Shown piece by piece: positions 47,260 to 64,000 of a stretch of DNA of 64,000 nucleotides (positions within the stretch are counted from its first letter, which is position 1; every line of letters starts with the position of its first letter). A model generated the notes under the pieces. The model saw only the letters and a list, made by a program, of their open reading frames with translations, ran no database searches and was not told where the DNA came from. The DNA lies in assembly GCA_029239875.1 (NCBI GenBank), contig JARBUD010000003.1:124001-188000 (forward strand), given 5' to 3'. The DNA comes from Xanthobacteraceae bacterium (GTDB taxonomy: Bacteria > Pseudomonadota > Alphaproteobacteria > Rhizobiales > Xanthobacteraceae). The position numbers and the translations under genes were made by a program.

Positions 47260-48402
47260 TCAGTTGTTCCGGTCCGGCGTCATATAGCGCCGGTAATCAT
47301 ATTCCGCCTCGCCGGTCGCCGCGTCCGCCTCGGCCAGCGCCAGCATGTGGGCGTGCAGCGGCGACTTGTGGCAGGCCGGATCGGTGGCTGCGGCATCGCC
47401 GGCGATCGCCATCGCCTGGCAGCGGCAGCCGCCCCAGTCGAGCTCCTTGCGCTCGCAGCTCTTGCAAAGGTCAGGCATCCAGTCGGTGCCGCGGAAGGCG
47501 TTGAAGGCGGGCGAATTCAGCCAGACATCGCTCAGCGAATGCTCGCGCACGTTCCAGAAGTCGAGGTTCGGGATGGTCTCGGCCGCGTGGCAGGGCAGCA
47601 CCTTGCCCGAAGGCGTCACGTTGAGCGACTGCCGGCCCCAGCCATTCATGCAGGGCTTGGGGTACTTGGCGTAATAATCCGGCACCACCGCGTCGATGGT
47701 CAGCTTGCCCTTGAGACGCGCGCGGGCCTCCTCCACCACGTCGAGCGCCCAGAACACCTGCTCGCGGGTCGGCATCAGCGCGCCGCGGTTGCGAAGCGCC
47801 CAACCATAATATTGCGAATGGGCGATCTCGATGCGCTTGGCGTCGAGCTCCAGCGCCAGCTCGATGAAGGCCGGGATCTGGTGGATGTTCGCCCGGTGCA
47901 CCACCGAATTGATGGTCAGCGGCAGGCCGAGCCGGCGCACCTCGCGCGCCACCGCCAGCTTCCTCTCATGCGCGCCGCGGAAGTTCGAGACCTTGTCGGT
48001 GATCTCCGCCGTCGCGCCCTGGAAGGAGAGCTGCACATGGTCGATGCCGGCATCGGAGATCGACTGTAGCCGCTCCGGCGTCACGCCGACGCCGGCGGTG
48101 ATGAGGTTGGTGTAGATGCCGACCTCGACGCAGTGGCGGATCATGTCCTCCAGATCGCGGCGGGCCGTGGGCTCGCCGCCGGACAGGTGCACCTGCAGCA
48201 CGCCAAGCTTGGCGGCCTCGGAGAACACGCGCTTCCAGGTGTCGAGGTCGAGCTCGACATTGCGCCGGTCGAGCTCGACCGGATTCGAGCAATAGGGGCA
48301 TTGCAGCGGGCAGCGATGCGTCAGCTCCGCCAGCATGCCGTAAGGCGCGGGCGGTGCGGGGCGTGCCAGCGGGGTGGTCAGCGGCTGGGCGACGATATTC
48401 AT
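47260..48402 (-). CDS. pqqE: PQQ biosynthesis radical SAM enzyme PqqE
   Basis: Forms the Glu-Tyr carbon-carbon crosslink in PqqA, the first step of PQQ synthesis. The 380-residue protein has the radical-SAM cluster motif CPLQCPYC (Cys31, 35, 38), [13 protein letters not shown], and a C-terminal SPASM domain with the cysteine run [17 protein letters not shown]. The ATG overlaps the pqqD stop. PqqD presents PqqA to this enzyme. Confidence 0.97.
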
Positions 48403-48710
48403 GACGCCGCATCCCCTATTACCGGGTTCGTCACCTCGATCATGCCCTTCTCCACCAGCCCGGCGAGGAAGGCGTCGACGTCGGTGGCGACGCGCGCGCG
48501 ATCGACGGTGAAGGCGCTCGCCAGTTCGTCGACGATGGTGTCGATGGAGCGGACTCCATCGACCTTCTTGAGGATCTCCACCGCGACCGGATCCGGGTTG
48601 AGCACGCGCTCGGGCGCGAGCAGCACCCACTGCCCGCGCGCCTCGTCATTGCGCAGCCGCACGCCGCGCGCGAGCCTCGGAATTCCGGTCGTGGCGAGGG
48701 TCTCGGTCAT
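48399..48710 (-). CDS. pqqD: PqqA chaperone PqqD
   Basis: Binds the PqqA peptide and hands it to PqqE. A 103-residue RRE-type protein: the core is [48 protein letters not shown], with a winged-helix pattern. Its ATG overlaps the pqqC stop and its stop overlaps pqqE, both as ATGA. Confidence 0.95.
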
Positions 48711-49444
48711 CGCGTCTCCTTCGGCACGAAGGCGCCGGGATAAGCCAGTTTCGGCTCGACATAGGCGAAATAGAGCGCGTCGAGCTGCACCCAGAGCACG
48801 TTACACTTGAACTCCAGCGCGCGGATGGCCGCTTCCTGCTGCTCCGGCGTGCGGGCGTGCCGCTTGACGTAGTCGAGCGCGAAGTCCGCATCGCGCGGCG
48901 CCTGCGTCAGGCGCTTGTCGAAATAGGCGAGCGTCTCCTTCGAGACGAAATCATAGTTCTTCAGCATGCCGGCCACACGCTCGCCGATGATGCCGGGCGA
49001 GAACATCTCCGTGAGCGAGGAGGCGATGGCCTCCAGCAGGCTCTTCTCGCGCACGAAATGCACATAGGCATCTACCGCGAAGCGGGTGGCGGGCAGCAGG
49101 CCGCGCAGCGAGGTGACGTAGTCCTGGTCCAGGCCCAGCCCGTCGGTGAGCTTCAGCCAGCGGGCGATGCCGCCCTCCCCCTCATGGTCGCCGTCATGGT
49201 CGATGATGCGCTGGCGCCAGACGCGGCGCAGGTCCGCGTCCTCCATGCGGGCGAGGATGGAGGAATCCTTCACCGGGATCATCGCCTGGTAGTAGTAGCG
49301 GTTCAGCGCCCAGGCCTGCACCTGGCCGAAATCCAGTTCGCCGCCATGCAGCAGCTTATGGAAGGGGTGCAAATTGTGGTAGCGGCGCTTGCCGACATCG
49401 CGCAGGCGCTCTTCAAGTTCATTCGGCGAAAGAAGCGTAGTCAT
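48707..49444 (-). CDS. pqqC: Pyrroloquinoline-quinone synthase PqqC
   Basis: Catalyses the last ring closure and eight-electron oxidation to PQQ without a cofactor. The 245-residue all-helical protein has RYHNLHPFHKLLHGGELDFGQVQAWALNRYYYQ, IIDHDGDHEGEGGIARWL and the conserved SSLTEMFSPGIIGERV. The ATG at 49444 overlaps the pqqB stop; a longer start upstream is not needed. Confidence 0.97.
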   Translation of the reverse strand: MTTLLSPNELEERLRDVGKRRYHNLHPFHKLLHGGELDFGQVQAWALNRYYYQAMIPVKDSSILARMEDADLRRVWRQRIIDHDGDHEGEGGIARWLKLTDGLGLDQDYVTSLRGLLPATRFAVDAYVHFVREKSLLEAIASSLTEMFSPGIIGERVAGMLKNYDFVSKETLAYFDKRLTQAPRDADFALDYVKRHARTPEQQEAAIRALEFKCNVLWVQLDALYFAYVEPKLAYPGAFVPKETR

Positions 49445-50379
49445 AGGGCGATCTCCATCCCATCTTGAGCGATCTCCCATCCGGCTTTATTTGCCGTGAT
49501 CCGCTCTTTCGAGCCATCAACAAGCACCGGATTGGTGTTGTTGATGTGAACATAGATTTTACGCCCCACATTGACTTGGCGCAAAGCTTCGATCGAACCA
49601 TTTTCGCCCGACATCGACATGTGTCCCATGCGCGTGCCGGTCTTGGTGCCGACGCCGGAGACGATCATCTCGTCGTCCTGCCACAGCGTGCCGTCGAACA
49701 GCACGACGTCGGCGCCCTCGAGGCGGGTGCGCAGCGCGTCGGTCATCGTCGCGCAGCCGGGAATGTAGAGGACGCGGACATCGCCGGCGCGCAATTCGAC
49801 GCCGATGGTCTGCTCGCCTTCGATGTCCGTGGCGAGCGCGCCCTTTTCCGCCTCCTCGCGCGCCTCGAGATAGAGCGCGATCTTGCCGGGAACCGGGAAG
49901 ATCGTCGCGGTGACGCCCTCCACCAGCCCGAAGCTCTCGCCGAGCTCAACCGGACGGCGCGTCACCACGCCTTCCGCCAGCACGTCGAAGGCGCTGCTCG
50001 AACGCAGCACCTGGTGGACGGCGGGCGTCGCCAGCAGCGTGAAAGGCTGCGCCTCGCGCAGGCTCAGCAGCCCGGCGACGTGGTCGATATCGGCATTGGT
50101 GAGCAGCACGGCGTTGACCGGCGAGTGCCGGCTTCCTTCGCGCGGATGCAGGGCCGGCACGGCCTGTATCTGCGACAGGATTTCTGGGGCGCAGTTCACC
50201 AGCGCCCAGTTCAGCCCGTCGGCGCTGACGGCGATCGACGCCTGCGTGCGACGGCGTACGCGCTCATCGCCGGCCCAGGCGAGCGAGCAGACGGGGCACC
50301 GGCAGTTCCACTGCGGGAATCCGCCGCCCGCCGCCGAGCCGAGGACGACGAGCCTGAAGCGGGACGGGGACGTGAGCAC
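49441..50379 (-). CDS. pqqB: PQQ biosynthesis protein PqqB
   Basis: A metallo-beta-lactamase-fold enzyme reported to hydroxylate the tyrosine of the crosslinked Glu-Tyr intermediate. The 312-residue protein opens RLVVLGSAAGGGFPQWNCRCPVCSLAW, with the family's N-terminal cysteines, and has NADIDHVAGLLSLR in place of the usual HxHxDH motif, as PqqBs do. It follows pqqA by 38 bp. Confidence 0.96.
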   Translation of the reverse strand: MLTSPSRFRLVVLGSAAGGGFPQWNCRCPVCSLAWAGDERVRRRTQASIAVSADGLNWALVNCAPEILSQIQAVPALHPREGSRHSPVNAVLLTNADIDHVAGLLSLREAQPFTLLATPAVHQVLRSSSAFDVLAEGVVTRRPVELGESFGLVEGVTATIFPVPGKIALYLEAREEAEKGALATDIEGEQTIGVELRAGDVRVLYIPGCATMTDALRTRLEGADVVLFDGTLWQDDEMIVSGVGTKTGTRMGHMSMSGENGSIEALRQVNVGRKIYVHINNTNPVLVDGSKERITANKAGWEIAQDGMEIAL

Positions 50380-50678: not shown

Positions 50679-51368
50679 TCAGCCCGGTTCCGGGTCGAAC
50701 ATAAAACCGCGCCCGCGCACGGTCACGATCATGTGCCCGCCGTCCGGCAGCGCTTCCGCCAGCTTGTGGCGGAGATAGCCGACATAGACGTCGACCACGT
50801 TGAGCGAGGCGCCGCCATGGCCGGCCCACAGCGCGGCGAAGATGTCGGCGCGCGCCAGCGGCTCGCCGGGATGGCGCATCAGCAGCGCCAGCAGCTCCAC
50901 CTCGCGCTCGGTAAGGCGCACGCGGGTGCCGGCGAGCTGCGCCTGGCGCGTGTCGAGGTCCAGGCTGAGAGGGCCGGCGGTGAGCACGCGCGGCTCGCTG
51001 TCGGCATTGGAGCGGCGCAGCGCCTGCACCTTCAGCCGCGCCAGCAGTTCCTCGAAGGCGAAGGGCTTGATGATATAGTCGTCCGCCCCCGCCATCAGCC
51101 CCTCGGTGCGCTCGTTCACGCTGGAGCGGGCAGAGAGCATGATGATCGGCGCGGTCTGGCCGCCGGCGCGCAGAGCCTTGCACACCTCGATGCCGGAGCG
51201 TCCGGGCAGCATGACGTCGAGGATGATCGCTTCCCACGCCTTGCCGTTGGCCGCGCGTAGTGCCTCCTCGCCGTCGCCGACGAGCTCGACCTGATAGCTT
51301 TCCGAGGAGAAGCCGCGCCGCAGCAGGGAACCGATGTCGGGGTCGTCCTCGACGATGAGAATGGTCAT
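50679..51368 (-). CDS. OmpR-family response regulator
   Basis: A 229-residue two-domain regulator. The receiver has the acidic pair in MTILIVEDDPDIG, the phosphorylation site Asp51 in ILDVMLPG and the Lys in DYIIKPFAF. The output is an OmpR/PhoB winged helix ending RGRGFMFDPEPG. The start overlaps the stop of its sensor kinase as ATGA. Closeness to pqqA (183 bp) suggests it may control the pqq operon; analogous TCSs regulate methanol oxidation in methylotrophs, but orthology is not shown. Confidence 0.9.
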   Translation of the reverse strand: MTILIVEDDPDIGSLLRRGFSSESYQVELVGDGEEALRAANGKAWEAIILDVMLPGRSGIEVCKALRAGGQTAPIIMLSARSSVNERTEGLMAGADDYIIKPFAFEELLARLKVQALRRSNADSEPRVLTAGPLSLDLDTRQAQLAGTRVRLTEREVELLALLMRHPGEPLARADIFAALWAGHGGASLNVVDVYVGYLRHKLAEALPDGGHMIVTVRGRGFMFDPEPG

Positions 51369-52993
51369 TGGGCGGCCTCCAATGTGATGTCGGGCACGGG
51401 CACGGGCAGGCGGACGGTAACGCAGGTGCCGCCGCGCCGTCCCTCCCCGCCGCTGACGCGGCTGTCGATCTCGATGCGCCCGCCATGGCGGTCGACGATC
51501 CACTTCGCCAAGGCGAGGCCGATGCCGAAGCCGGTGCCCTCGCGGGCGGCGCCGCGCCAGAAGCGCTCGAAGACGTGCGGCAGGTCGTCCGGCGGGATGC
51601 CGGTGCCGTGGTCGCTCACTCTTATCACCACATCGTTAGCCTCGCGTGCGGCCTCGACGCGCACCGTCTCTCCGGGCGGCGAGTGCCGCACCGCATTGGC
51701 GATCAGCCCGTCGAAGGTCTGGCGCAGCCAGTCGCGGTCGGCATCGATGGCGAGGTCGTCCGGCGAGCACGCGGTCTCCAGCGTCAGCCCGGCAGCGCGC
51801 GCGACCGGCTGCATGCTCTCGCGCAGATCGGCGACGAGGTCGCAGACGGGAAACAGCGAGCGGTCGAGCTCGATCTGTCCGCTCTCGGAGCGGGCGATGC
51901 GAAGCAAGTCCTCGACGCGCCGGTGCAGCCGGCGGGCGCGCGACTGGATGGTCAGCAGCGCCGCGCGCAGATCCTCCTCGCGCGGCTGTGCCGGGCGCAG
52001 GGTGATCTCCGCCTCGCCGAGGATCACGGTGAGCGGGGTGCGCAATTCGTGGCTTACATCGGTGAAGAAGCGCCGGCGGGCGAGGTCTACATTCTCCAGC
52101 CGGGTATTGGCGGCGCGCAGCTCGGCCGTGCGCGCGTCGACCGTCGCCTGCAACTGCTTCTGCGCCGCCACGAGCCGCGTCTCGCGGCGGGCAAGATGGG
52201 CCGCCATGCGGTTGAAGCGGGCCATGGCGAGGCTCAGTTCATCATGGCCGGTGACGGCGATGCGTGTGTCCGAGCGCCCGCGGGCGATGGCCGCCGCTGC
52301 CGCCGCGACATCGGCGACGCGGTTGACCAGCGAGCGCCCGAGCCGGTGATACAGCACGACCGAGATCAGGCAGGCGAGCGCGACGCCGAGCAGCCCCCAG
52401 CGAATGGTGCGCTGCCGCAAATCGCGCACCGCCGCCTGCGCGTCATGGGCGGCGATGCGCTCCTCCTCCATAGCCTGGCCCAGCGGCCCGCTGAAGCCGG
52501 CGGCGAAGACGTCGAGAGCCACCCGCACCGCCGTCGCCGGCTCCTCGGCGGCGAGCGCGACGTCGATCTGGCGATCGAGCACGTCGAACTGCGCCCGCAT
52601 CCGCGCGAGGGTACGGCTGCGTGCCGCCATCAGCGTGCGCTGCTCCTCGCCGGACAGCCGCCCGACATCGGTGGCGAGAGCGTCCTCCAGCCGCGTGAAG
52701 GCGGCACGGGCGCGGTCGGCGGCGGCGAAGCGCCCGTCATGCATCGGCGCCTGCCCGGCGGAGGGGTCCTCGTGCCCGGCCTGCAGCGCCACCAGCGCGT
52801 AGTCGCCGATGCGGCCGGAAACGGCCGAGAGCAGCTCCAGCCGATTCTGCGCCGACACCAGCCGGTCGAGCTGGGCATTGGCCGCCCCGAGGCCGAAGAT
52901 GAGCGCGAGCGTCGACGCGACCGTCACCAGAACGGCGACGGCGAGCAGCAGCGCCATGCGCGCCCTGAGCGACGAAAACAAGCCACGCCTCAT
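51365..52993 (-). CDS. Membrane sensor histidine kinase
   Basis: Partner of the downstream OmpR-type regulator. The 542-residue protein has an N-terminal helix (about 13-34), a helical periplasmic sensor of about 160 residues with no recognised ligand domain, a second helix (about 199-217), HAMP, the dimerisation helix with His315 in FFTDVSHELRTPLTVILGE, and an HATPase domain with DHGTGIPPDDLPHVFERFWR and GFGIGLALAKWIV. The signal is unknown; location suggests alcohol, PQQ or metal status. Confidence 0.9.
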   Translation of the reverse strand: MRRGLFSSLRARMALLLAVAVLVTVASTLALIFGLGAANAQLDRLVSAQNRLELLSAVSGRIGDYALVALQAGHEDPSAGQAPMHDGRFAAADRARAAFTRLEDALATDVGRLSGEEQRTLMAARSRTLARMRAQFDVLDRQIDVALAAEEPATAVRVALDVFAAGFSGPLGQAMEEERIAAHDAQAAVRDLRQRTIRWGLLGVALACLISVVLYHRLGRSLVNRVADVAAAAAAIARGRSDTRIAVTGHDELSLAMARFNRMAAHLARRETRLVAAQKQLQATVDARTAELRAANTRLENVDLARRRFFTDVSHELRTPLTVILGEAEITLRPAQPREEDLRAALLTIQSRARRLHRRVEDLLRIARSESGQIELDRSLFPVCDLVADLRESMQPVARAAGLTLETACSPDDLAIDADRDWLRQTFDGLIANAVRHSPPGETVRVEAAREANDVVIRVSDHGTGIPPDDLPHVFERFWRGAAREGTGFGIGLALAKWIVDRHGGRIEIDSRVSGGEGRRGGTCVTVRLPVPVPDITLEAAQ

Positions 52994-53806: not shown

Positions 53807-54313
53807 ATGGCCAAGATCAACAAGGTGCTCATTGGCGAATCGCTGGTGGGCGACGGCAACGAGGTCGCTCATATCGACCTCATCATCGGCCCGCGCGGCA
53901 GCGCGGCGGAAAGCGCCTTCGTCAATGCGCTGACCAACAACAAGGACGGTTTCACCTCGCTGCTCGCCGTCGTGACCCCGAACCTGCTCGCCAAGCCGAA
54001 CACCATCCTGTTCAACAAGGTGACGATCAAGGACGCCCGCCAGGCCGTCCAGATGTTCGGCCCGGCGCAGTACGCGGTCGCGAAGGCTGTCGTCGACAGC
54101 GTCGCCGAAGGCGTTATCCCGGAAGAAGAAGCCGACGACCTGTTCATCTCGGTCGGCGTGTTCATCCACTGGGAAGCGGCGGATGACGCCAAGATCCAGC
54201 AGTTCAACTACCAGGCCACCAAGGAAGCCCTGAAGCGCGCCGTCGACGGCGAGCCGAAGGTACGCGACGTGCTCTCGCAGGCCGCTTCGGCCAAGCACCC
54301 CTTCGCCGCTTAG
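53807..54313 (+). CDS. fae: Formaldehyde-activating enzyme
   Basis: Condenses formaldehyde with tetrahydromethanopterin, the entry to the H4MPT oxidation pathway in methylotrophs. The 168-residue protein has [32 protein letters not shown] with probable catalytic His22, and the conserved [41 protein letters not shown] precedes the ATG. It stands alone here, without other H4MPT genes. Confidence 0.96.
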
Positions 54314-54696: not shown

Positions 54697-55413
54697 TCAA
54701 CCGCCGATCCCGAGCGCGAGGCGCAGCGCGTCGACGCGCAGCGGCTCGCCACGCTCCTCGCGCGACAGGCCAACCGGCGCATCGCGGGCGATTCGGGCCG
54801 GCTCGCCCTCCAGCACGACGATCCGGCTCGCCAGCTCCACTGCCTCGCGGCTGTCATGGGTGACGAACAGCACCGTCGCCGGCCGCGTCGCCAGCAGGCG
54901 GCGCAGCAGGTCGCGCAGGCGCGCGGCGCCGGCCTCGTCGAGCGAGACGAAGGGCTCGTCCATCAAAAGCACATCCGGCTCGATGACGAAGGCGCGGGCC
55001 AGCGCGACCCGGCGCTGCTGGCCGAGCGAGAGGCGCTCGGGATAGGCACTGGCGAGATCGGCGAGACCGACCTCCGCCAGCATCGCCATGGCGCGGGCGC
55101 TTGCCTCCGCGCCGGAAGGTAGCGGCAGGGCGACGTTCTCCAGCACGGTTCGCCACGGCAGCAGCCGCGGGCTCTGGAAGGCATAGGCGATGCGGGGGGC
55201 CTGCGCACCGAAGCTGACCGAGCCGGAATAGGCGGTGTCGAGCCCGGCGACGATGTTGAGCAGCGTCGTCTTGCCCAGCCCCGAGGCCCCGAGCAGCACG
55301 AGGAACTCGTTCGCCGCCACCTCCAGCCGGAAGTCTTGGAAGACCTCGCGCGCGGGGGTGCCGGCCACGGCCGGGTAGCGTTTCTCGGCGATATCGATGT
55401 GGATCGCGCTCAT
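54697..55413 (-). CDS. ABC importer ATPase (nitrate/sulfonate/taurine type)
   Basis: ATPase of the importer whose permease and binding protein lie upstream. 238 residues: Walker A GASGLGKTTLLN, Q-loop FQSPRLLPWRTVLENV, Walker B VLLMDEPFVSLD and H-loop LFVTHDSREAVELA. The signature reads LSLGQQRRVALARAF, with Leu replacing the second position glycine of LSGGQ. It starts inside the permease stop (ATGA). Substrate unknown. Confidence 0.88.
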   Translation of the reverse strand: MSAIHIDIAEKRYPAVAGTPAREVFQDFRLEVAANEFLVLLGASGLGKTTLLNIVAGLDTAYSGSVSFGAQAPRIAYAFQSPRLLPWRTVLENVALPLPSGAEASARAMAMLAEVGLADLASAYPERLSLGQQRRVALARAFVIEPDVLLMDEPFVSLDEAGAARLRDLLRRLLATRPATVLFVTHDSREAVELASRIVVLEGEPARIARDAPVGLSREERGEPLRVDALRLALGIGG

Positions 55414-56159
55414 CGCCGCCACCGGTTGGCCCGCCGCTCCCAGGGCTGCAACAGGCCGAGCTCGATGACCTGCACCACCGCGGTGAAGGCGAGCGCATAG
55501 GCGAGGATGGTGGCCACGTCGAAAAGCTGAAACGCGGTCTGCAATTCGAAGCCGACGCCGTTGGAGCGGCCGAGCAGCTCCACCACCAGCACGATCTTCC
55601 AGGTGAGCGCGAGACCCGAGCGGGCGCTGGCGGCGAAGAAGGGCACCAGCTGCGGCAGGGTGACCTCGCGCAGCGCCTTGAGCCGCGGCAGGCGGTAGAC
55701 GCGCGCCATCTCGTCGAGATCGCGCGACAGCGCCGCCGCGCCCTCGCGCATGGTGACGGCGACATTGGGGATCTTGTTGATGGCGACAGCGGTGATGGCG
55801 GCTGCCTCGGTCAGCCCGAACCAGACATAGCAGAGGATGATCACCACCAGCGCCGGCAGGTTGAGCAGCACCACCACCCACGGCCCGAACAGCTCGTTGA
55901 GCTGGACGGAGCGCCCGAGCGCGATGCCGACGGCGGAGCCAATCGCCATGGCGATGAGGAAGCTCGCGGCGACGCGGGCAAGCGTGATGGCGATATTAGT
56001 CTGCAGCGCGCCGCTCTCCGCCGCGCGCGCCATCGCCGCGACGACGGCGGCCGGACCGGGCAGCAGCGGCGAGGCGATGAGGAGCGCGGCCAACTGCCAC
56101 AGGAGTACCAGCCCCGCCAGTGAGGCCGCGGTCAGCAGCAGGCGTGCGGCAGTCGACAC
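55410..56159 (-). CDS. ABC importer permease (nitrate/sulfonate/taurine type)
   Basis: A 249-residue inner-membrane protein with about six helices and the importer EAA-loop region EGAAALSRDLDEMARVYRLPRLKALREVTLPQLVPFF. The GTG at 56159 is preferred: it sits 7 bp after the binding-protein stop with GAGTGAGG upstream; upstream in-frame codons read as non-native sequence. Part of a four-gene unit with overlapping ends. Confidence 0.85.
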   Translation of the reverse strand: MSTAARLLLTAASLAGLVLLWQLAALLIASPLLPGPAAVVAAMARAAESGALQTNIAITLARVAASFLIAMAIGSAVGIALGRSVQLNELFGPWVVVLLNLPALVVIILCYVWFGLTEAAAITAVAINKIPNVAVTMREGAAALSRDLDEMARVYRLPRLKALREVTLPQLVPFFAASARSGLALTWKIVLVVELLGRSNGVGFELQTAFQLFDVATILAYALAFTAVVQVIELGLLQPWERRANRWRR

Positions 56160-56166
56160 GTGTGCC

Positions 56167-57159
56167 TCACTCGCCCACCGGCCCGAACAATCCGCGGTCA
56201 AAGCCCGGATTCGGCCCGACCAGCTCCGGCCCGCCGGTCTCGGCCAGCACCTGGTAGAGCTTGGCGCAGGACTGGCGCTCGGCCTCGCCGAAGCTGCCGG
56301 GGATGCCGGCGCGGTAATAATCGCGCAGCCGGGCGAACTCGGCATCATCAGTCGCCTGCATCAGTGGGCGGATGCGCTCCCAGGCGGCATTGTCGGTCGC
56401 TAGCACGCGATTGGCCGAGGCGGCCGCGCGCAGAAAGGCGGAGATCGCCGCGCCGCGCTCGGTCATGATGGCGTTGCGCCAGACGAAGCCGACCAGCGGC
56501 GGGGCGGGATCGATGCCGATGCCCTTGATGACGTCCTTCATGTCGAGGAAGCGTCGGAACCCCTTGGCGTCGAGCCGGGCGGCATAGGGCCAGAAGGTCA
56601 ACACCGCGTCGACGCGGCCGAGCACCAGCTGCTCGCTCACCAGCGGCGCGGCGCCAAACACCGGCTCGGCAGCTTGGGCGAGGTCGACGCCGAGCTGCGC
56701 CTTGCCATAGGCGCGCAGCAGCAGCCAGCTCTTGTCCAGCGCGCCGCCGGCGACGCCGATCTTCTTTCCCTTGAGGTCGGCGAGGCTCTTCACCGGTCCG
56801 TCCGCCGCCACCATCAGCGCGCCGAGCGTGGTGGAGAAGGGGGCGAAGCGCATGCGCTCGCCGTCCTGCGTCCGGCGCAGCGCCCACAGCCAGTCGCTGA
56901 CGATGAGGTCGATGTCGCCGGCCTGGAGCGCCACGGTCGTCGCTTGCCCGCTGGCGAAGTCGACGGCGTCGAGGGTGAGCCCCTCGGCCTTGTCGAAGCC
57001 CTCGGTGCGGATGGTCTCGACCAGCCAGTTCAGCGTGCCGAATTTCAGCGAGCCGATCCGCAGCTTCAGCTCCGACTGCTGCGCACGTGCCGGCAGTGGC
57101 AGCAGCGGAATCAGCGTGATGGCAGCCGATGCCAGAAGGCTGCGGCGGGTGACGTTCAT
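56167..57159 (-). CDS. ABC importer substrate-binding protein, NMT1-like
   Basis: A 330-residue periplasmic binding protein with a twin-arginine-like leader (TRRSLLASAA) ending ARA-Q27. The mature part is the NMT1/SsuA-like fold: LKFGTLNWLVETIRTEGFDKAEGL, LQAGDIDLIVSDW, SLADLKGKKIGVAGG. Relatives bind sulfonates, nitrate, taurine or pyrimidines; association with PQQ genes hints at a methylotrophy-linked ligand. The start overlaps the stop of the DUF3280-like gene. Confidence 0.85.
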   Translation of the reverse strand: MNVTRRSLLASAAITLIPLLPLPARAQQSELKLRIGSLKFGTLNWLVETIRTEGFDKAEGLTLDAVDFASGQATTVALQAGDIDLIVSDWLWALRRTQDGERMRFAPFSTTLGALMVAADGPVKSLADLKGKKIGVAGGALDKSWLLLRAYGKAQLGVDLAQAAEPVFGAAPLVSEQLVLGRVDAVLTFWPYAARLDAKGFRRFLDMKDVIKGIGIDPAPPLVGFVWRNAIMTERGAAISAFLRAAASANRVLATDNAAWERIRPLMQATDDAEFARLRDYYRAGIPGSFGEAERQSCAKLYQVLAETGGPELVGPNPGFDRGLFGPVGE

Positions 57160-57689
57160 GGCGCGGCCTTCCCGGTAAGCGGGGGATCCAGCAGGCGGTT
57201 GCGGATCAGATAGGAGACGCCGCGCAGCCAGGATTCGTCCGTGTTGTTGCGGATGTCGGCGCTGCCCGCCCGCAGCACCTCCCCGGTAGCAACGTCACGA
57301 AGCTGGAAATTGATGTTGAGAATCAGGTTCGAGACCTTTTGCACCAGCCCGATCACCTCGATCTGCGCACCGAGGGAGCGAGCGATCTCGAGCTCGCAGC
57401 TGTTGCAGTTGCGGAACGGCGAAGCCTCTGTGATCTCCGCGTTTTTCGGCGACAAGTCGACTACTTCATAGCCGGCTTTCTTCAACCGCTCGCGCACGTC
57501 GTCGGTGATGAGAGCGAGGCGTTTCAGTTCCTCCGGCTTCGGCCCGCCAGGACCCGCCTCGCCGCTGGTATCGAACAGCTCGAAGTCGAAGACGGCGACG
57601 CGTGTCGCCGCGCGGGCGTCGGCGGCGAAAGCGAGGGCCCATGCGAGAACGAGGATTGCCGTTCCGCCGATGCGACTGAAAGCACTCAT
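57156..57689 (-). CDS. Exported DUF3280/DUF2380-like protein
   Basis: A 177-residue exported protein with a signal peptide ending ARA-A28. Blocks VAVFDFELFDTS, LITDDVRERLKKAGYEVVDL, NCNSCELEIARSLGAQ with a CxxC (Cys95, Cys98), QKVSNLILNINFQLRDVATGEVLR and NTDESWLRG match a family of unknown function often found beside PQQ-enzyme genes in methylotrophs. It leads the importer operon with a 4-bp overlap. The CxxC could bind metal or be redox active. Confidence 0.8.
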   Translation of the reverse strand: MSAFSRIGGTAILVLAWALAFAADARAATRVAVFDFELFDTSGEAGPGGPKPEELKRLALITDDVRERLKKAGYEVVDLSPKNAEITEASPFRNCNSCELEIARSLGAQIEVIGLVQKVSNLILNINFQLRDVATGEVLRAGSADIRNNTDESWLRGVSYLIRNRLLDPPLTGKAAP

Positions 57690-57767
57690 CCAGTTCTGCC
57701 TCTTTGGGGCAGGCTTTGTTCCCGCCTTCTGGCAATCATAGCGCCGAGATATGCTCCCGCAAGAGAC

Positions 57768-57783
57768 CGGGAAAAAGTTCCCG
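57768..57783. promoter_or_regulatory. Inverted repeat in the divergent promoter region
   Basis: CGGGAA (57768-57773) and TTCCCG (57778-57783) flank AAAG in an unusually AT-rich spacer between two divergent operons. It is a candidate operator. Confidence 0.4.
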
Positions 57784-57810
57784 ATTTTAATATTTGTGAT
57801 ATGATTTGGA

Positions 57811-57824
57811 TAACGGCAGCGTTA
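57811..57824. promoter_or_regulatory. Second inverted repeat in the divergent promoter region
   Basis: TAACG (57811-57815) and CGTTA (57820-57824) flank GCAG, 28 bp from the previous repeat. Arms are short; both repeats could be recognised by one regulator of the two operons. Confidence 0.35.
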
Positions 57825-57960
57825 CATTTTCTTATTAGTTTCTTATGCACGCTATTTTATTGAATGCTTGAGTTCAATTGCGTAGAGTTTTGCCACGGCG
57901 ACCGAGAAAAGTTCCGAAGAGACTTGTCGACGACCAACATTGCCGTGGGATGAAATGCCG

Positions 57961-59202
57961 ATGAAAAGGATGGCGAGCGTCACTGGCGCGGCGCTTATTG
58001 CAACTGTGTGCGCGATGACCGTGGCGAGCGCGCAGGAGGCCACCTCCCCTGCGCCTTCCTCGCCGCCGCTCGTGGCGAAGCCCGCGGCGGCCATACCGCC
58101 CGAGCAGACCTTTCGGATCGGCCTGGTGCGGCAGATTCCCGAGCCGCCGCCATGGATCGCACCGCTGCAGATGCCACCCGACGACCTCGGTGTTGCCGGG
58201 GCCGAGCTCGGCATTCGCGACAACCTCACCAGCGGCCGCTTCCTCAAGCTCGACTACAAGCTCCAGACCGAGATCGTGCCGACGGGCGGCGATCCGTTGC
58301 CGGCGGCCCAGAAGCTGGTCGAGGCCGGCAACAGCTTCATCCTGCTCGACGTGCCGGCCGACCAACTGCTGCGCATCGCCGACGCGCTGAAAGACAAGAA
58401 CGTCCTCATCATCAATGTCGGCGCCACCGACGACCGGCTGCGCCAGCAGGACTGTCGCGCCAACGTGTTCCACATCGCTCCGAACCGGGCGATGCTGACC
58501 GACGCTCTGGCGCAGTTCCTCGTCACCAAGCGCTGGCGCAACTGGTTCCTCATGGTCGGACGCACCGACGCCGACAAGCTTTATGCCGAGGCAGTGCGTC
58601 GCTCGGCCAAGAAGTTCGGCGCCAAGATCGTCGCTGAGAAAACCTGGGACTACGGTCCGGACGCGCGCGCCACCGCGCAGTCCGAAGTGCCGCGCGGCAC
58701 GCAGGTCGGCGAATACGACATCCTCGTCGTCGCCGACGAGCTGGGCGAGTTCGGCGACATCCTGCCCTACAACACCTGGCTCGCCCGCCCCACCGCCGGC
58801 ACGCAGGGGCTGATGCCGCTCTCCTGGCACCCGACCATGGAGAACTGGGGCGCCTCGCAGCTGCAGAGCCGCTTCTTCAAGCAGTCCAAGCGGATGATGC
58901 TGCCGCTCGACTTCCAGATGTGGGAAGGCGTCTTCTCCATCGGCTCCGCCAGCCTGAAGACCCGCAACAGCGATCCCGCCAAGGTGAAGGCGCAAATGCT
59001 CACGCCGGATTACGACCTGCCGGTGTTCAAGGGCGTCGCGGCCAGTTTCCGCGACTGGGACCACCAACTGCGCCAGCCGATCCTGCTCACCCACGCCACC
59101 AACACGGTGACGCTGTCGCCGCAGTCCGGCTTCCTGCACCAGGTCACGCCGCTCGACACGCTCGGCTTCGACCGGCCCGAGACAGCCTGCAAGTTCCAAT
59201 AA
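57961..59202 (+). CDS. PQQ-system ABC transporter substrate-binding protein (PedA1/LutA-like)
   Basis: A 413-residue exported binding protein of the branched-chain-amino-acid type, family PQQ_ABC_bind. The leader ends ASA-Q25. The mature part shows RIGLVRQIPEPPPWIAPLQMPPDDLGVAGAELG, LIINVGATDDRLRQQDCRANVFHIAPNRAM and the C-terminal SGFLHQVTPLDTLGFDRPE. Homologues in Pseudomonas (PedA1) and Methylorubrum (LutA) are tied to lanthanide uptake. The ATG at 57961 is chosen among several; upstream ATGs are 57940 and 57955. Confidence 0.87.
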   Translation: MKRMASVTGAALIATVCAMTVASAQEATSPAPSSPPLVAKPAAAIPPEQTFRIGLVRQIPEPPPWIAPLQMPPDDLGVAGAELGIRDNLTSGRFLKLDYKLQTEIVPTGGDPLPAAQKLVEAGNSFILLDVPADQLLRIADALKDKNVLIINVGATDDRLRQQDCRANVFHIAPNRAMLTDALAQFLVTKRWRNWFLMVGRTDADKLYAEAVRRSAKKFGAKIVAEKTWDYGPDARATAQSEVPRGTQVGEYDILVVADELGEFGDILPYNTWLARPTAGTQGLMPLSWHPTMENWGASQLQSRFFKQSKRMMLPLDFQMWEGVFSIGSASLKTRNSDPAKVKAQMLTPDYDLPVFKGVAASFRDWDHQLRQPILLTHATNTVTLSPQSGFLHQVTPLDTLGFDRPETACKFQ

Positions 59203-59229
59203 GATCAAGCCATTGCCAGGAGGAAACGA

Positions 59230-60216
59230 ATGAGACGCCAGATCTTGCTGTCCACCACGGCGGCCGCCATCGCCGGGCTCATGCTGGCCGATGCACTGCC
59301 GGCGCAGGCGGGCCCCCGCGCCTTCGTCTCCAATGAGCGCGACCACACGATGAGCGTGGTCGACATGGATACGCTCAAGGTCATCGAGACCATCAAGACC
59401 GGCCGGCGCCCACGCGGCATCATCGCCAGCCCGGACGGCAAGCTGATCTATCTGTGCGCCTCGGACGACAACCGCGTCGAGGTCTACGACGCGGCGACGC
59501 TGAAGCTGGTGAAGACGCTGCGCTCCGGTCCCGACCCGGAGCTGTTCGTGCTGCACCCCTCGGGCAACCCGCTCTACATCGCCAACGAAGACGACAACAT
59601 GGTCACGGTGGTGAATGTCGACAACAACGAGCTGGTGGTCGAAATCCCCGTCGGCGTCGAGCCGGAGGGCATGGGCATCAGCCCCGACGGCAAGTACATG
59701 GTCAACACCTCCGAGACCACCAACATGGCCCATGTTGTGGACACGGCGACCAACGAGATCATCGAGAACATCCTCGTCGATTCCCGTCCGCGCATCGCCG
59801 AATTCTCCAAGGACGGCAAGCAGCTCTGGATCTCGGCCGAGGTCGGCGGCACGGTGGCGGTGGTCGACCCGGCCACCTGGAAGATCATCAAGAAGATCTC
59901 GTTCAAGATCCCCGGAGTGACCGACGACGCCATCCAGCCGGTCGGTGTACGCGTCACCAAGGACGGCTCCAAGGCCTTCGTCGCCCTCGGTCCGGCGAAC
60001 CGCGTGGCGGTGATCGACGCCAAGACGCTGGAAGTGGAGAAGTATCTGCTGGTCGGCCAACGCGTCTGGCAGCTCGGCTTCACGCCGGACGAGAAGTTCC
60101 TCGTCACCACCAACGGCAACTCGAACGACGTCTCGATCATCGACGTCGCGAGCGAGAAGGTCACCAAGTCCGTCACCGTCGGCCGCTCGCCCTGGGGCGT
60201 GGTGGTGGTGCCGTAA
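59230..60216 (+). CDS. PQQ-dependent-catabolism-associated YVTN beta-propeller
   Basis: A 328-residue exported propeller with a leader ending AQA-G28 and about seven YVTN-type repeats (AFVSNERDHTMSVVDMDTLKVIETIKTGRRPRG; LYIANEDDNMVTVVNVDN; and so on). It belongs to the PQQ_ABC_repeats family, a homologue of PedA2/LutD-type proteins. GCCAGGAGG precedes the ATG, 27 bp after the binding protein. Probably binds or passes the transported ligand in the periplasm; that is inference. Confidence 0.88.
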   Translation: MRRQILLSTTAAAIAGLMLADALPAQAGPRAFVSNERDHTMSVVDMDTLKVIETIKTGRRPRGIIASPDGKLIYLCASDDNRVEVYDAATLKLVKTLRSGPDPELFVLHPSGNPLYIANEDDNMVTVVNVDNNELVVEIPVGVEPEGMGISPDGKYMVNTSETTNMAHVVDTATNEIIENILVDSRPRIAEFSKDGKQLWISAEVGGTVAVVDPATWKIIKKISFKIPGVTDDAIQPVGVRVTKDGSKAFVALGPANRVAVIDAKTLEVEKYLLVGQRVWQLGFTPDEKFLVTTNGNSNDVSIIDVASEKVTKSVTVGRSPWGVVVVP

Positions 60217-60259
60217 GCCCTTGACGATCAACCAAGAACATCATTCGGAGGATTTTGCC

Positions 60260-60685
60260 ATGAAGACGCATATTGCCGCCGCGCTCGCCGCCACCCTTGC
60301 CCTGTCGGGCCTCGCCTATGCCAAGGGCGACCTCACGCTGAAGCCGGTCGAGCTCGAGGAGCTCACCGTCGGGCTCGGGGATTCCGGTTTCGGAGTCTCC
60401 CAGCAAAAATATGAGCTGGAGACCGGCAAGGCCTATTCGCTGACCATCAAGTCGACCGGCAAGAAGGAGTGCGCTTGGCAGGCGCCGGGGCTGTTCCAGA
60501 ACATCTTCCTGCGCAAGGTCGAGGCCGGCGGCATGGAGATCAAGGCCATCCATCTCACCGAGCTGGAGTTCGAGGAGGATGGAGAGGCCGAGATGTTCTT
60601 TGTGCCGATCAAGCCCGGCAACTACGCCTGGTACTGCAAGGGCATGGAAGAGCGCGGCATGAAGGGCGAATTCATCGTTAAGTGA
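60260..60685 (+). CDS. Cupredoxin-like exported protein without the usual copper-ligand set
   Basis: A 141-residue exported protein with a leader ending near YAK22. The beta-rich mature part ends in the cupredoxin-like closing strand YAWYCKGMEERGMKGEFIV, with Cys126, Met129 and Met134. The histidine normally between the Cys and Met ligands is absent, and I see no N-terminal His ligand beyond His98. Cys71 could pair with Cys126. GGAGG precedes the ATG. It sits inside the transporter cluster, so it may bind a metal other than copper, or be structural. Confidence 0.72.
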   Translation: MKTHIAAALAATLALSGLAYAKGDLTLKPVELEELTVGLGDSGFGVSQQKYELETGKAYSLTIKSTGKKECAWQAPGLFQNIFLRKVEAGGMEIKAIHLTELEFEEDGEAEMFFVPIKPGNYAWYCKGMEERGMKGEFIVK

Positions 60686-60713
60686 CGACGCGGACCTTGT
60701 TCTCCTCGTAGAC

Positions 60714-60745
60714 TGTCCCCGGCCATGGCCGGGGACATTTTCTTC
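60714..60745 (+). terminator. 24-bp perfect palindrome followed by a T-rich run
   Basis: TGTCCCCGGCCA and its complement form a perfect 24-bp palindrome (60714-60737), followed by TTTTCTTCT. It may partly terminate after the cupredoxin-like gene and so lower expression of the downstream ATPase and permease. It is sequence-related to the hairpin at 25055. Confidence 0.65.
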
Positions 60746-60774
60746 TCTGGGTTCGCCTGCTTCCGGGAGATGCC

Positions 60775-61560
60775 ATGACGGTTCCGCTGCACGACACGGC
60801 GCCTTCGCCTTCCGATCCCTCCGTGCCGGCGCTCGCGGTGCACGGCGTCACCCACGCCTTCGGCGCCCGCAAGGCTCTGGACGATGTCAGCCTCGACGTG
60901 CCGACGGGCAGCTTCACCGCCCTGCTCGGCCCCAATGGCGCCGGCAAGACCACCCTGTTCTCGCTGATCACCCGGCTCTACGACAACCGCAGCGGCGCCA
61001 TCCATGTGCTCGGCTACGACGTGCGCCGCCAGCCGGCCGCCGCGCTGAGCCGGCTCGGCGTCGTGTTCCAGGCCCGCACCCTCGACCTCGAGCTCACCGT
61101 GCTGGAGAACCTCGTCTATCACGCTACGCTGCACGGCATGGGCTTCGGCGCCGGGCGGCGGCGGGCGCTGGAACTCCTCGAAGGCGTCGGACTGGCGGAC
61201 CGGGCGAAGGACAAGGTGCGCAATCTTTCCGGCGGGCAGATGCGCCGTGTGGAGATCGTCCGCGCGCTGATGCACCGCCCGCGCCTGCTGCTGCTCGACG
61301 AGCCGACCGTCGGCCTCGACATCGCCTCGCGCGCGGCGCTGGTGGCGCAGGTGCGCGAGCTGGTGGCGAGCGCCGACATCGGCGTGCTGTGGGCGACCCA
61401 CATCATCGAGGAGATCGGCCCCGGCGACCGCATCGTCGTGCTGCATCGCGGGCGGGTACGTGCGCGCGGCAGCTATGAGGACATTCTGGCCGAGGCCGGC
61501 ACGGACGAGCTCGGCGCCGCCTTCCTCAGGCTGGTCGGCGAGGAGACCGAGGCGGCATGA
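60775..61560 (+). CDS. PQQ-system ABC transporter ATPase (PedB/LutE-like)
   Basis: A 261-residue ATPase of family PQQ_ABC_ATP. Walker A GPNGAGKTTLFSLI, signature NLSGGQMRRVEI, Walker B LLLLDEPTVGLDIA, H-loop WATHIIEE. It pairs with the ABC-2 permease whose start overlaps its stop as ATGA. In Pseudomonas and Methylorubrum the equivalent transporter is needed for growth on lanthanides. Direction of transport is not proven from the sequence. Confidence 0.9.
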   Translation: MTVPLHDTAPSPSDPSVPALAVHGVTHAFGARKALDDVSLDVPTGSFTALLGPNGAGKTTLFSLITRLYDNRSGAIHVLGYDVRRQPAAALSRLGVVFQARTLDLELTVLENLVYHATLHGMGFGAGRRRALELLEGVGLADRAKDKVRNLSGGQMRRVEIVRALMHRPRLLLLDEPTVGLDIASRAALVAQVRELVASADIGVLWATHIIEEIGPGDRIVVLHRGRVRARGSYEDILAEAGTDELGAAFLRLVGEETEAA

Positions 61561-62399
61561 GCTCCCCCTCCCCACGCTTCCACCTGCCGCTCGGCGGCTA
61601 TCTCGTCGTCCTCGCCGGCATATGCTGGCGCGAGGCGTTGCGCTTCCTCAACCAGCGTGGCCGGTTCCTGTCCGCGCTCGTGCGCCCGCTGGTGTGGCTG
61701 TTCATCTTCGCCGCCGGCTTCCGCTCGGTGCTCGGCGTCTCGATCATCCCGCCCTATGAGACCTATGTGCTGTACGAGGTCTATGTGACGCCCGGGCTGG
61801 TGGCGATGATCCAGTTGTTCAACGGGCTGCAATCCTCGCTCTCCATGGTCTATGACCGCGAAGTCGGGGCGATGCGCATATTGCTGGTCAGCCCCTATCC
61901 GCGCTGGTTCCTGCTGGTCTCCAAGCTTCTCGCCGGCATCTGCGTCTCGCTGCTGCAGGTCTATGCGTTCCTGGCCGTCGCCTGGTTCTGGGAGGTCGAG
62001 CTGCCGCCCATCGGCTACATCGCCGTGCTGCCGGCGCTGCTGCTCACCGGGCTCATGCTGGGCGCCATGGGGCTGCTGATGTCCTCCGTCTTCCGCCAGA
62101 TGGAGAATTTCGCCAGCGTGATGAACTTCGTCATCTTCCCGATGTTCTTCGCCTCTTCCGCGCTCTACCCGCTCTGGCGGGTGCAGGAGAGCAGCCTCGT
62201 CCTCTGGTGGATCTGTACGCTGAACCCCTTCACCTATGCGGTGGAGCTGATCCGCTTCGCCCTCTACGGCCAGTTCGAGCCGCTCTCCGCCCTCGTCGTC
62301 GCCGGTTGCGCCGTTGTGTTCCTTGGCGCCTCGATACTGGCGTATGATCCTTCCGCCGGCGTCATGGCCCGCCGCGGCGGGCCGGAGAATGCCCGATGA
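61557..62399 (+). CDS. PQQ-system ABC-2 type permease (PedC/LutF-like)
   Basis: A 280-residue inner-membrane protein with six helices. It shows the ABC-2 layout, with GYLVVLAGICWREALRFLNQRGRF before the first helix, a conserved EVGAMRILLVSPYPRWFLLVSKLL segment, and NPFTYAVELIRFALYGQF near the end. Family PQQ alcohol-ABC permease. It overlaps the ATPase gene by four bases, and the following gene starts 53 bp later. Confidence 0.9.
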   Translation: MSSPSPRFHLPLGGYLVVLAGICWREALRFLNQRGRFLSALVRPLVWLFIFAAGFRSVLGVSIIPPYETYVLYEVYVTPGLVAMIQLFNGLQSSLSMVYDREVGAMRILLVSPYPRWFLLVSKLLAGICVSLLQVYAFLAVAWFWEVELPPIGYIAVLPALLLTGLMLGAMGLLMSSVFRQMENFASVMNFVIFPMFFASSALYPLWRVQESSLVLWWICTLNPFTYAVELIRFALYGQFEPLSALVVAGCAVVFLGASILAYDPSAGVMARRGGPENAR

Positions 62400-62452
62400 G
62401 CCGGCCATACACACAGGGTCCGCAGAGGCCCGATACCCTCGAGGAAACGCCT

Positions 62453-63073
62453 ATGCCGTCACGCCGCCTCCTCCGCCTCGCCCTATCGCTTGCGCTGCTG
62501 GCGGGCACGACGCCCGCTTTCGCGGCCGCCCCCGCCGGCACGTTGTGGCCCTGCATCCAGCGCAAGGTGCCGACGCTCGCCTATGGCCAGATGTGGTCCG
62601 GCCCTGCGCTCGACAATCTCAACTGGCAGGCTGACGAGGGCGTGGCCGCGCTCGTGCCCGTGCTGGTGGCGCAGCGCACCCCCATCGACGACGCGACCAA
62701 GCAGGTCGAGGAATTCGCCGGCAAGGCCGGCCCGGACAAGAAGCAGCGCCTGACCCTGCTCTTCGCCGGCGTGTTCGACCAGATCAACACCCGCCGCAGC
62801 CACATCATCAACGGCATCGAGCGCTACTCGCAGCACCAGATCGAATTGTCCAAGCGCATCAAGGACGAGAGCCTGGCGCTCGCCAAGGCGAAGAAGGCGG
62901 CGCAGACCGACGAGGAGAAGGCCAAGGCCGCCGAGCTCGAGGAGCACCTGCTCTGGGACACCCGCATCTACGACGCGCGCACCCAGGCGGTGACGGCCGT
63001 GTGCGAGAGCCCGGTGTTGCTGGAGCAGCGCGCCTTCTCCATCGCCCGCGCCATCCAGAACGTGATGGAGTGA
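62453..63073 (+). CDS. Exported helical protein of the PQQ transporter cluster, unknown function
   Basis: A 206-residue exported protein with a leader ending AFA-A25. The mature part is mainly helical: a first cysteine in LWPCIQRKVP, a coiled-coil-like charged helix at about 125-165 and a final cysteine in AVCESPVLLEQRAF. The ATG at 62453 has GAGGAAAC upstream; an in-frame ATG at 62396 overlapping the permease stop would add 19 residues. A LutG-like position in the cluster, but no function is known. It converges with the HXXEE gene with 2 bp between stops. Confidence 0.72.
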   Translation: MPSRRLLRLALSLALLAGTTPAFAAAPAGTLWPCIQRKVPTLAYGQMWSGPALDNLNWQADEGVAALVPVLVAQRTPIDDATKQVEEFAGKAGPDKKQRLTLLFAGVFDQINTRRSHIINGIERYSQHQIELSKRIKDESLALAKAKKAAQTDEEKAKAAELEEHLLWDTRIYDARTQAVTAVCESPVLLEQRAFSIARAIQNVME

Positions 63074-63075
63074 GC

Positions 63076-63666
63076 TCAGGCGCGCAGCCGTCTCAGCCGC
63101 AGCGCGACATAGGCGACGATGGCGAGGTGCAGCAGGACCGCACCCGCCAGCCCCGCGGCATGGAAGCGCCAGCCGACCTCCGGCTCGACGCCGATCGCGC
63201 CGATGGTGATGAGGCTGAGCGGCAGGAACAGCGCCACGGACGTCACCAGCCCGGGATTGTAGACGCCGAGCCGGACGCGCGCGCCGATATGGGTGATGCC
63301 GTTCACCAGCATGGCGTAGGGAGCGACGAGCCCGTAGCCCGGCCCCCACAGCAGCACGGCATAGAGGGCGCCGAGGTTCAACGCCCACACCGCGCCGACA
63401 TTGATGACCAGCACCGCCGGCGTGGTCAGCGCCTCGCGCCCGCCGAACACCACATGGTTGGCGAACAGGCGGAAGCGGTCGCCGGTGTGCTCCTCCACCT
63501 GGTGGATCATGTAGCCGGGGCTGTGCAGGAAGATAAGCAGCAGCGCCAGCGACGCCTCGGCTCCCAGCAGCGGGGCCGTCGCCAGCAGCGCCGCCGCCAT
63601 GAAGCCGGCGCCAGCCACCCAGTGGTCGGCGAGCCAGTCCCTGAGCCATTCCAAGCGTTCGCGCAT
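63076..63666 (-). CDS. HXXEE-domain membrane protein
   Basis: A 196-residue protein with about six transmembrane helices and the namesake motif His55-Gln-Val-Glu-Glu59 in GYMIHQVEEHTGDRFRLF, plus a second conserved His in NGITHIGARV. HXXEE proteins are of unknown function; the His and Glu in membrane could bind a metal. Its link to this island is by location only. Confidence 0.8.
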   Translation of the reverse strand: MRERLEWLRDWLADHWVAGAGFMAAALLATAPLLGAEASLALLLIFLHSPGYMIHQVEEHTGDRFRLFANHVVFGGREALTTPAVLVINVGAVWALNLGALYAVLLWGPGYGLVAPYAMLVNGITHIGARVRLGVYNPGLVTSVALFLPLSLITIGAIGVEPEVGWRFHAAGLAGAVLLHLAIVAYVALRLRRLRA

Positions 63667-63689
63667 GAGGCGAGTATAGGCGATTCGCG

Positions 63690-64000
63690 TCAGTCCAGCG
63701 GTGTCGCCGCCTCCAGCGGCAGGCCCGCCTTGGCCCAGCCATCGCTGCCGCCGGGATACCAGAGGATGTTGGTATAGCCGTACTCCAGCGCGCGCTTGGC
63801 GGCATTCCAGCTCATCCAGCAGTCGGTCTGGCAGTAGAAGGCCAGCGCGGCATCGTGGCGGCCTTCGGTCAGCGTGCCGAGCCCCCGACGGAAATAGGCG
63901 TCCATGCCGGCGCTGAGCGCGCCGTAGCCGACATTGGGCAGCCAGACGCTGCCCGGCAGATGATCGCGCTTCTTGTCGCGCCAGATCGTGCCGGCCGGAA
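63690..64000 (-). CDS. PQQ-dependent-catabolism-associated CXXCW-family rhodanese-like protein, N-terminus beyond window
   Basis: The visible 103 C-terminal residues show a rhodanese-like fold, with HLPGSVWLPNVGYGALS (the loop before the active site) and FYCQTDCWMSWNAAKRALEYGYTNILWYPGGSDGW. The cysteine pair here reads C-x3-C-W. The family occurs with PQQ alcohol dehydrogenases; a periplasmic redox or sulfur-handling role is possible. The reading frame stays open to the window edge, so an internal Met near 63905 is not the start. Probably the operon continues outside with a quinoprotein dehydrogenase. Confidence 0.82.
   Translation of the reverse strand, partial: PAGTIWRDKKRDHLPGSVWLPNVGYGALSAGMDAYFRRGLGTLTEGRHDAALAFYCQTDCWMSWNAAKRALEYGYTNILWYPGGSDGWAKAGLPLEAATPLD

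Follow-up and report, generated by a model that had tools for sequence, protein, structure and literature searches.

A probable Lut/PedA1A2BC-type lanthanide transporter without LutH beside a XoxF-type methanol dehydrogenase in a Xanthobacteraceae bacterium

The closest described systems to the locus treated here are the lut cluster of Methylorubrum extorquens AM1 and the PedA1A2BC transporter of Pseudomonas putida KT2440. In AM1, lutE and lutF mutants are reported to fail on methanol with lanthanum (La), and lutA, lutE, and lutF mutants to hold La deposits in the periplasm; loss of lutC is reported to cause a small defect with La, and LutD to bind lanthanides (PMC7391723). In P. putida, pedA1A2BC is reported to be needed at low La (PMC6839425). 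We analyzed a stretch of 64,000 nucleotides (hereafter the window; G000:C62:124001-188000) from the genome of a Xanthobacteraceae bacterium (5.07 Mb in 71 contigs), together with a 19.5-kb stretch (L005) that overlaps and follows the window end. The window carries, at 57940–63073, a gene cluster that probably encodes a lanthanide transporter of the Lut/PedA1A2BC family without LutH, which would supply the XoxF-type methanol dehydrogenase encoded beside it.

The cluster comprises six open reading frames (ORFs) that succeed one another on the + strand with gaps of at most 90 bases, all of them intact. Protein families were called by curated NCBIfam cut-offs and by Pfam, "secreted" was judged by eye from a signal-like N-terminal sequence, and the AM1 Lut names were assigned by position only, with Methylobacterium hispanicum (L133) standing in for AM1:

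57940–59202, + strand: LutA/PedA1-type periplasmic binding protein (TIGR03863, 455.7 bits, cut-off 413.6; Peripla_BP_6, 67.4 bits)
59230–60216, + strand: YVTN beta-propeller, PedA2 type, LutB by position (TIGR03866, 500 bits, cut-off 287.3)
60257–60685, + strand: secreted cupredoxin-like protein, LutC by position (fold matches of the AlphaFold model; conserved acidic positions)
60775–61560, + strand: ATP-binding cassette (ABC) ATPase, LutE/PedB (TIGR03864, 332.4 bits, cut-off 302.25)
61557–62399, + strand: ABC-2 type permease, LutF/PedC (TIGR03861, 379.9 bits, cut-off 241.35; PF01061, 101.3 bits)
62396–63073, + strand: secreted helical protein, LutG by position (alignment of 117 rows, 112 distinct; model described below)

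The listed start of LutA is TTG, and an ATG a few codons further in is likelier. A preliminary description of this DNA had named these six proteins in this order and proposed a candidate lanthanide uptake locus, with doubt reserved for the case that the binding protein and propeller lay outside the PedA/Lut clades. All six are present on the + strand, four of them above the curated cut-offs, and the binding protein and propeller score inside the PedA families (TIGR03863 and TIGR03866). With the canonical order, the adjacent ATPase and permease genes, and a lanthanide-type XoxF adjoining, the proposal stands, the word "uptake" being suggested by homology to published mutants.

A run of genes on the opposite strand (CXXCW, XoxJ-, XoxG-, and XoxF-type) extends across the end of the window, and a second dehydrogenase is encoded on another contig (C49):

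L005: XoxJ-like binding protein (TIGR03871, 292 bits, cut-off 212.15)
L005: XoxG-like cytochrome (TIGR03874, 234.7 bits, cut-off 161.75)
L005:3445–5250: pyrroloquinoline quinone (PQQ) methanol/ethanol dehydrogenase, XoxF-type (TIGR03075, 781.8 bits, cut-off 480.05)
L005: "quinoprotein relay" type metallohydrolase (TIGR04559, 399.7 bits, cut-off 280)
L005: cytochrome c
L006:9370–11367 (contig C49), − strand: MxaF-like dehydrogenase with the motif HDEWDYAG, its MxaJ- and MxaG-like neighbors named by eye

The XoxF-type protein matches 6oc5, a structure named as lanthanide-dependent XoxF, with 1169.8 bits, and keeps the second aspartate of the motif (HDEWDYDG, vs. HDEWDFDG in 6oc5). Alanine vs. 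aspartate at that place is taken here to mark calcium vs. lanthanide enzymes. Because XoxF has DYD and the C49 enzyme DYA, the genome seems to encode both a calcium-type and a lanthanide-type dehydrogenase, as in organisms with a rare-earth switch.

The closest named relative is Ancylobacter radicis, with 92% identity in the permease (among the best 80 of 586 relatives in a permease alignment scan of named genomes, a choice by which the named loci lean to near kin); in a comparison with its locus (L123), identity reaches at least 80% for five of the six proteins and 69% for LutG. Synteny had been suggested as a check, and the five closest named loci, four from Ancylobacter (L123, L124, L126, L127) and one from a Xanthobacteraceae metagenome-assembled genome (L125), repeat the order Fae, lut cluster, then XoxF, metallohydrolase, and cytochrome. 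The permease exceeds its cut-off in each of the 30 genus genomes that were searched, including the present one.

Co-occurrence was counted in 199 genomes, one even draw from the bacterial order; as these genomes are related, Fisher values overstate their independence. The census lists were transferred by hand to counting scripts. Strong and background matches were divided by eye at the gap in bit score for XoxF (812 vs. 656 bits), SsuA (179.8 vs. 52 bits, not counting a second fragment, of 98 bits, from the G192 gene), and LutH (792 vs. 67 bits, leaving aside a 91-bit fragment that belongs to the same gene in G069); lanmodulin scores are graded, with no clean gap (80, 72 for a second G009 copy, and 64 bits). 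The first-look candidates scored per genome numbered 5 for LutH, 20 each for lanmodulin and the cupredoxin, and 11 for SsuA, and absences from single genomes are uncertain. The permease is over its cut-off in 76 genomes and LutA in 73 (72 of the 76 permease-bearing genomes vs. 1 of the 123 others), which fits a transporter working with its binding protein. XoxF above 800 bits occurs in 58 genomes, every one of them permease-bearing.

Neither a TonB receptor nor a lanmodulin had been in view in the preliminary description; this holds in the window, and LutH was not found genome-wide either. Neither the window nor L005 gives a match to the TonB plug; the 10 plug matches elsewhere in the genome include none that is LutH-like, and the sole receptor on the same contig is approximately 150 kb away from the lut genes. 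The possibility of a LutH hidden at another place in the genome was rejected: a single Methylobacterium LutH query found nothing (no proof alone), and a 17-row LutH profile gave background only (best 22.3 bits, all eight candidates scored), as it did across all 30 genus genomes searched, own included (best 28.5 bits). The candidacy of one of the genome's own TonB receptors as a disguised LutH was likewise rejected, their best NCBIfam matches being to FhuA-, ferrioxamine-, Fiu-, heme-, and general siderophore-receptor models; 8 of the 10 pass the TIGR01783 siderophore-receptor cut-off. For lanmodulin there is no match in the genome at E ≤ 0.001 (20 of 44 first-look candidates scored); in the census, matches of 80 bits or more occur in 21 genomes, all among the 76 with the permease.

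Across the order, true LutH (790 bits or more) is found in 31 genomes, all permease-bearing, and in none of the 123 others. The remaining 45 of the 76 carriers are without LutH, and an absent LutH is therefore common. Among the lut loci (156 in total, 151 distinct, five being the same places twice), a LutH match lies near the cluster in 44 of the 151. We also considered another class of TonB receptor beside the LutH-less clusters and rejected it, as 44 of the 45 plug-positive loci are the LutH-match loci and the 45th (L152) is a weak match (1.7e-9); the plug profile, built from the 10 plugs of this genome together with those of 17 LutH sequences, detected receptors at 45 of the 156 loci, and a very divergent plug could escape it. 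The LutH-less share extends published cases: P. putida KT2440 is described as without a close LutH homologue (PMC6839425; PMC12997753) and Sinorhizobium meliloti 2011 as without an obvious LutH by BLAST (PMC12628762). Because LutH-like receptors are reported to be widespread across lineages of methane oxidizers (PMC12482762), the share holds for the present sample only. Iron chelator systems are named in the P. putida study as one possibility for the outer-membrane step (PMC6839425), and in the present genome, with 8 of 10 receptors of siderophore type, the step may be shared with iron. Close XoxF is always accompanied by the transporter (58/58), yet LutH is missing from 45 of 76 carriers, which makes the outer-membrane step a testable question in most such bacteria of the sampled order.

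A LutD-like gene gave no tblastn match in the window or L005, to which the search of this genome was limited, LutD itself being identified by position only. In Methylobacterium loci a LutD-like small protein is encoded before the ATPase. In Ancylobacter relatives, and in Hansschlegelia, a small LutD-like protein is paired with a cupredoxin gene away from the lut core:

L125:434–610, − strand: LutD-like small protein, paired with the cupredoxin gene
L126:350–526, − strand: the same
L127:567–743, − strand: the same
L129:1648–1830, − strand: the same

No Pfam family matches the cupredoxin-like protein, and its plastocyanin match in NCBIfam is weak (21.3 bits vs. a cut-off of 87.85). A PDB fold search with its AlphaFold model (mean predicted local distance difference test, pLDDT, 89.6; confident from residue 31 onward) retrieves multicopper oxidases, copper nitrite reductases, and cupredoxins (best 50 of 509 matches, E ≤ 0.001); by sequence profile, the matches to solved structures are weak only, the best being filamin (E 0.018), with copper nitrite reductase next. 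Positions 71, 94, 104, and 106 hold an acidic residue in 60, 60, 62, and 61, respectively, of the 62 distinct family sequences, and the Cys-His-Met copper motif, sought close to the C-terminus as C-x(2-5)-H-x(2-7)-M, occurs in 1 of the 62 (the first His lies outside this test). The alignment thus indicates that the family has lost the copper motif and keeps four carboxylates, although Cys127 speaks against a clean loss of copper, being present in 10 of the 62 sequences, including the window protein, which has methionines nearby as well. Strong profile matches (120 bits or more) occur in 54 census genomes, 53 of the 76 with the permease and 1 of the 123 others; in L125, L126, and L127 a more divergent cupredoxin gene lies approximately 5 kb off instead of within the lut cluster. 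Methylobacterium gene order makes the protein the counterpart of LutC, by position only.

Immediately upstream, on the opposite strand, is a second group of conserved genes:

57156–57689, − strand: DUF3280/DUF2380 protein, probably secreted (PF11684, 176 bits)
56167–57159, − strand: SsuA/NMT1-like periplasmic binding protein (TIGR01728, 61.7 bits, below the cut-off of 163.5)
55410–56348, − strand: SsuC-like permease, start uncertain, named without a family scan (75 of the 151 distinct lut loci have a homologue)
54697–55450, − strand: SsuB-like ATPase, start approximate, named without a family scan (ABC ATPase sequence by eye, in the ORF 54697–55881)

By this cut-off, the binding protein is not an aliphatic sulfonate SsuA. 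In the census, SsuA-like orthologues split cleanly from paralogues and occur in 71 genomes, namely 65 of the 76 permease-bearing ones vs. 6 of the 123 others; by genus, a hand tally gives 31 of 38 vs. 3 of 57 (57 being the remainder of 95 genera, and 19 genomes of the permease search without a match being unlisted). In 48 of the 71 genomes the lut permease or XoxF is no more than 10 kb from the gene, and in 21 neither is present within 50 kb on the same contig; in loci L050–L053, L115, and L122 it adjoins an ATPase and permease while LutA is not nearby but elsewhere in the genome. The cargo candidates are a chelated lanthanide, a chelator, or an alcohol-oxidation product, and the system may simply accompany PQQ-dependent alcohol oxidation. 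Lanthanide-responsive ssuABCD genes, in an operon that includes ssuD, are reported for strain RH AL1 (PMC10848612); they are a possible counterpart of the SsuABC-like system. A DUF3280 homologue is present in 74 of the 151 distinct lut loci; this Pfam is listed among the top 20 linked to Calvin cycle gain, and is given as unexplained in that study (PMC7895386); the connection might be autotrophic methylotrophy that relies on XoxF. Narrow literature searches returned no account of a carboxylate-bearing cupredoxin family that tracks the lut permease, and no description of an SsuABC-like importer linked to it.

These two families permit a bolder reading, which we regard as rather unlikely: that both are unrecognized parts of the lanthanide machinery in this order, the cupredoxin fold being re-purposed from copper to a four-carboxylate site and the SsuABC-like importer (often with DUF3280) bringing in chelated metal or recycling the chelator, so that together they replace part of the LutH/lanmodulin route in LutH-less genomes and the ABC-2 complex is perhaps not the only, or not the actual, importer. 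The import direction of the ABC-2 complex is inferred from the published mutants with La in the periplasm (PMC7391723) and from the co-occurrence of permease and binding protein.

Several observations weigh against assigning the cluster to lanthanide import. The four TIGR models are named for PQQ-dependent alcohol oxidation (the permease model as PedC), and these names refer to alcohol systems, not to lanthanides. The permease is of the ABC-2 type, a family in which the more familiar members (DrrB, NodJ, and KpsM, weaker matches here) are exporters, and no solved relative of it was found by sequence at E ≤ 0.01. Two of the 76 permease genomes (G033 and G112) have no LutA match at all. In AM1, loss of lutA is reported to slow growth strongly without stopping it, and lutE and lutF mutants to show no growth before suppressors appear (PMC7391723). 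Membership in the ABC-2 family and this leaky phenotype of lutA call for some caution on the import direction. They also suit an alternative in which the transporter exports a lanthanide chelator or another XoxF factor, with LutA and the propeller outside the transport cycle; exporters are the nearest other named matches, and a separate system of importer type, the SsuABC-like one, co-occurs with the permease. We nevertheless hold export to be improbable, since LutA accompanies the permease in 72 of the 76 genomes that carry it and AM1 ABC-transporter mutants are reported still to take La from the medium and keep it in the periplasm (PMC7391723).

The alcohol-related names, in particular the NCBIfam permease name "alcohol ABC transporter", bear on a further alternative, that the system carries an alcohol, an aldehyde, or PQQ rather than a metal, its co-localization with XoxF reflecting general alcohol oxidation; 18 of the 76 permease genomes are without XoxF above 800 bits (their other PQQ dehydrogenases are unclassified). 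The La-specific phenotypes reported for pedA1A2BC and lut mutants (PMC6839425; PMC7391723) contradict this, and a PQQ exporter would presumably be needed for MxaF too, which leaves such a cargo very improbable. The reading of these genes as a lut remnant, silent or decayed, which could be drawn from the lack of a LutH or lanmodulin match in the genome and of a LutD-like gene in the window and L005, is scarcely credible given six intact ORFs, the identity to A. radicis (at least 80% in five proteins, 69% in LutG), and a permease over its cut-off in 30 of 30 genus genomes.

For a LutH-less lanthanide importer, the following route can be proposed. Lanthanide ions or chelates would reach the periplasm by a route encoded elsewhere, probably siderophore-type TonB receptors or porins. 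The periplasmic propeller and the carboxylate-bearing cupredoxin may hold the metal and hand it on, as their conservation suggests: propeller positions 102, 104, 120, 122, 144, 146, and 162 carry an acidic residue in 122 to 126 of the 128 distinct sequences and, by the repeat of approximately 42 residues, would fall in neighboring blades, forming a candidate metal site (among solved structures, a surface-layer propeller, 1l0q, and hydrazine synthase beta come closest). LutA would then present the metal to the LutE/LutF ABC complex, which, by homology to the AM1 and KT2440 mutants, would move it to the cytoplasm using ATP. The metal would let XoxF replace the calcium enzyme MxaF, seemingly also encoded in the genome.

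The LutG-like protein belongs to no Pfam or NCBIfam family, and its model (mean pLDDT 88.0) has no fold match at E ≤ 0.001. In the 117-row alignment, W51, P52, C53, W67, R134, Q148, R190, C203, and P206 are conserved at 100% as rounded; the family thus shows WPC close to the N-terminus of the mature protein, conserves one more Cys, and is modeled as long helices. Beyond it are two genes that the preliminary description had placed facing the other way, and both are indeed on the − strand:

63076–63666, − strand: HXXEE membrane protein (PF13787, 52.4 bits)
63690–64000, − strand: 3' part of a CXXCW protein gene, whole at L005:1191–1775, beyond the window (TIGR03865, 226.1 bits, cut-off 128.05)

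An HXXEE homologue occurs in only 2 of the 151 distinct lut loci (L123 and L126), and the protein is a lineage-specific local addition rather than part of the system.

Further upstream, the island continues with formaldehyde-activating enzyme, regulatory, and PQQ biosynthesis (pqq) genes:

53807–54313, + strand: formaldehyde-activating enzyme Fae (TIGR03126, 250.3 bits, cut-off 118.05)
51365–52993, − strand: sensor histidine kinase (generic matches, none over cut-off among the best 25 of 80)
50679–51368, − strand: OmpR-type response regulator (generic matches, none over cut-off among the best 25 of 95)
49441–50379: pqqB, adjoining pqqC, named by eye
48707–49480, − strand: PqqC (TIGR02111, 398.6 bits, cut-off 240)
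48399–48710: pqqD, named by eye
about 47260–48420: pqqE, named by eye

The OmpR-type two-component pair (50679–52993, − strand) thus lies between the pqq genes and Fae, and kinase matches upstream of Fae are also seen in L123–L127; the pair is a candidate regulator of the rare-earth switch.

That the cluster is an ordinary member of a known system is well supported. What remains of interest is that the outer-membrane receptor is so commonly absent, together with two conserved partner families without an assigned role, the cupredoxin-like and the SsuABC-like, which are now named and are open to tests of metal binding and to gene deletion.

Compared with the lut cluster of AM1, the locus shares the order LutA, propeller, cupredoxin, ATPase, permease, and LutG (PMC7391723). 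In Methylobacterium the order is LutA, propeller, cupredoxin, small protein, ATPase, permease, LutG, and LutH, and the proteins of the present locus are 38 to 71% identical to those of M. hispanicum. Unlike AM1, no LutH or lanmodulin was found in the present genome, and there is no LutD-like gene between the cupredoxin and the ATPase. The lut homologues reported for S. meliloti 2011 and Bradyrhizobium are alike in placing lut ABC genes with XoxF (PMC12628762) but differ in genus and arrangement, and several Bradyrhizobium loci carry LutH, and some lanmodulin, unlike the locus here. The PedA1A2BC system of P. putida KT2440, as described, is alike in its binding protein, YVTN propeller, ATPase, and permease, in having no close LutH, and in serving a lanthanide-dependent PQQ dehydrogenase (PMC6839425; PMC12997753). 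In contrast to P. putida, the partner here is a XoxF with XoxG/J-type genes, accompanied by cupredoxin-like and LutG-like genes, and the pqq genes, Fae, and the SsuABC-like system share one island with the transporter.

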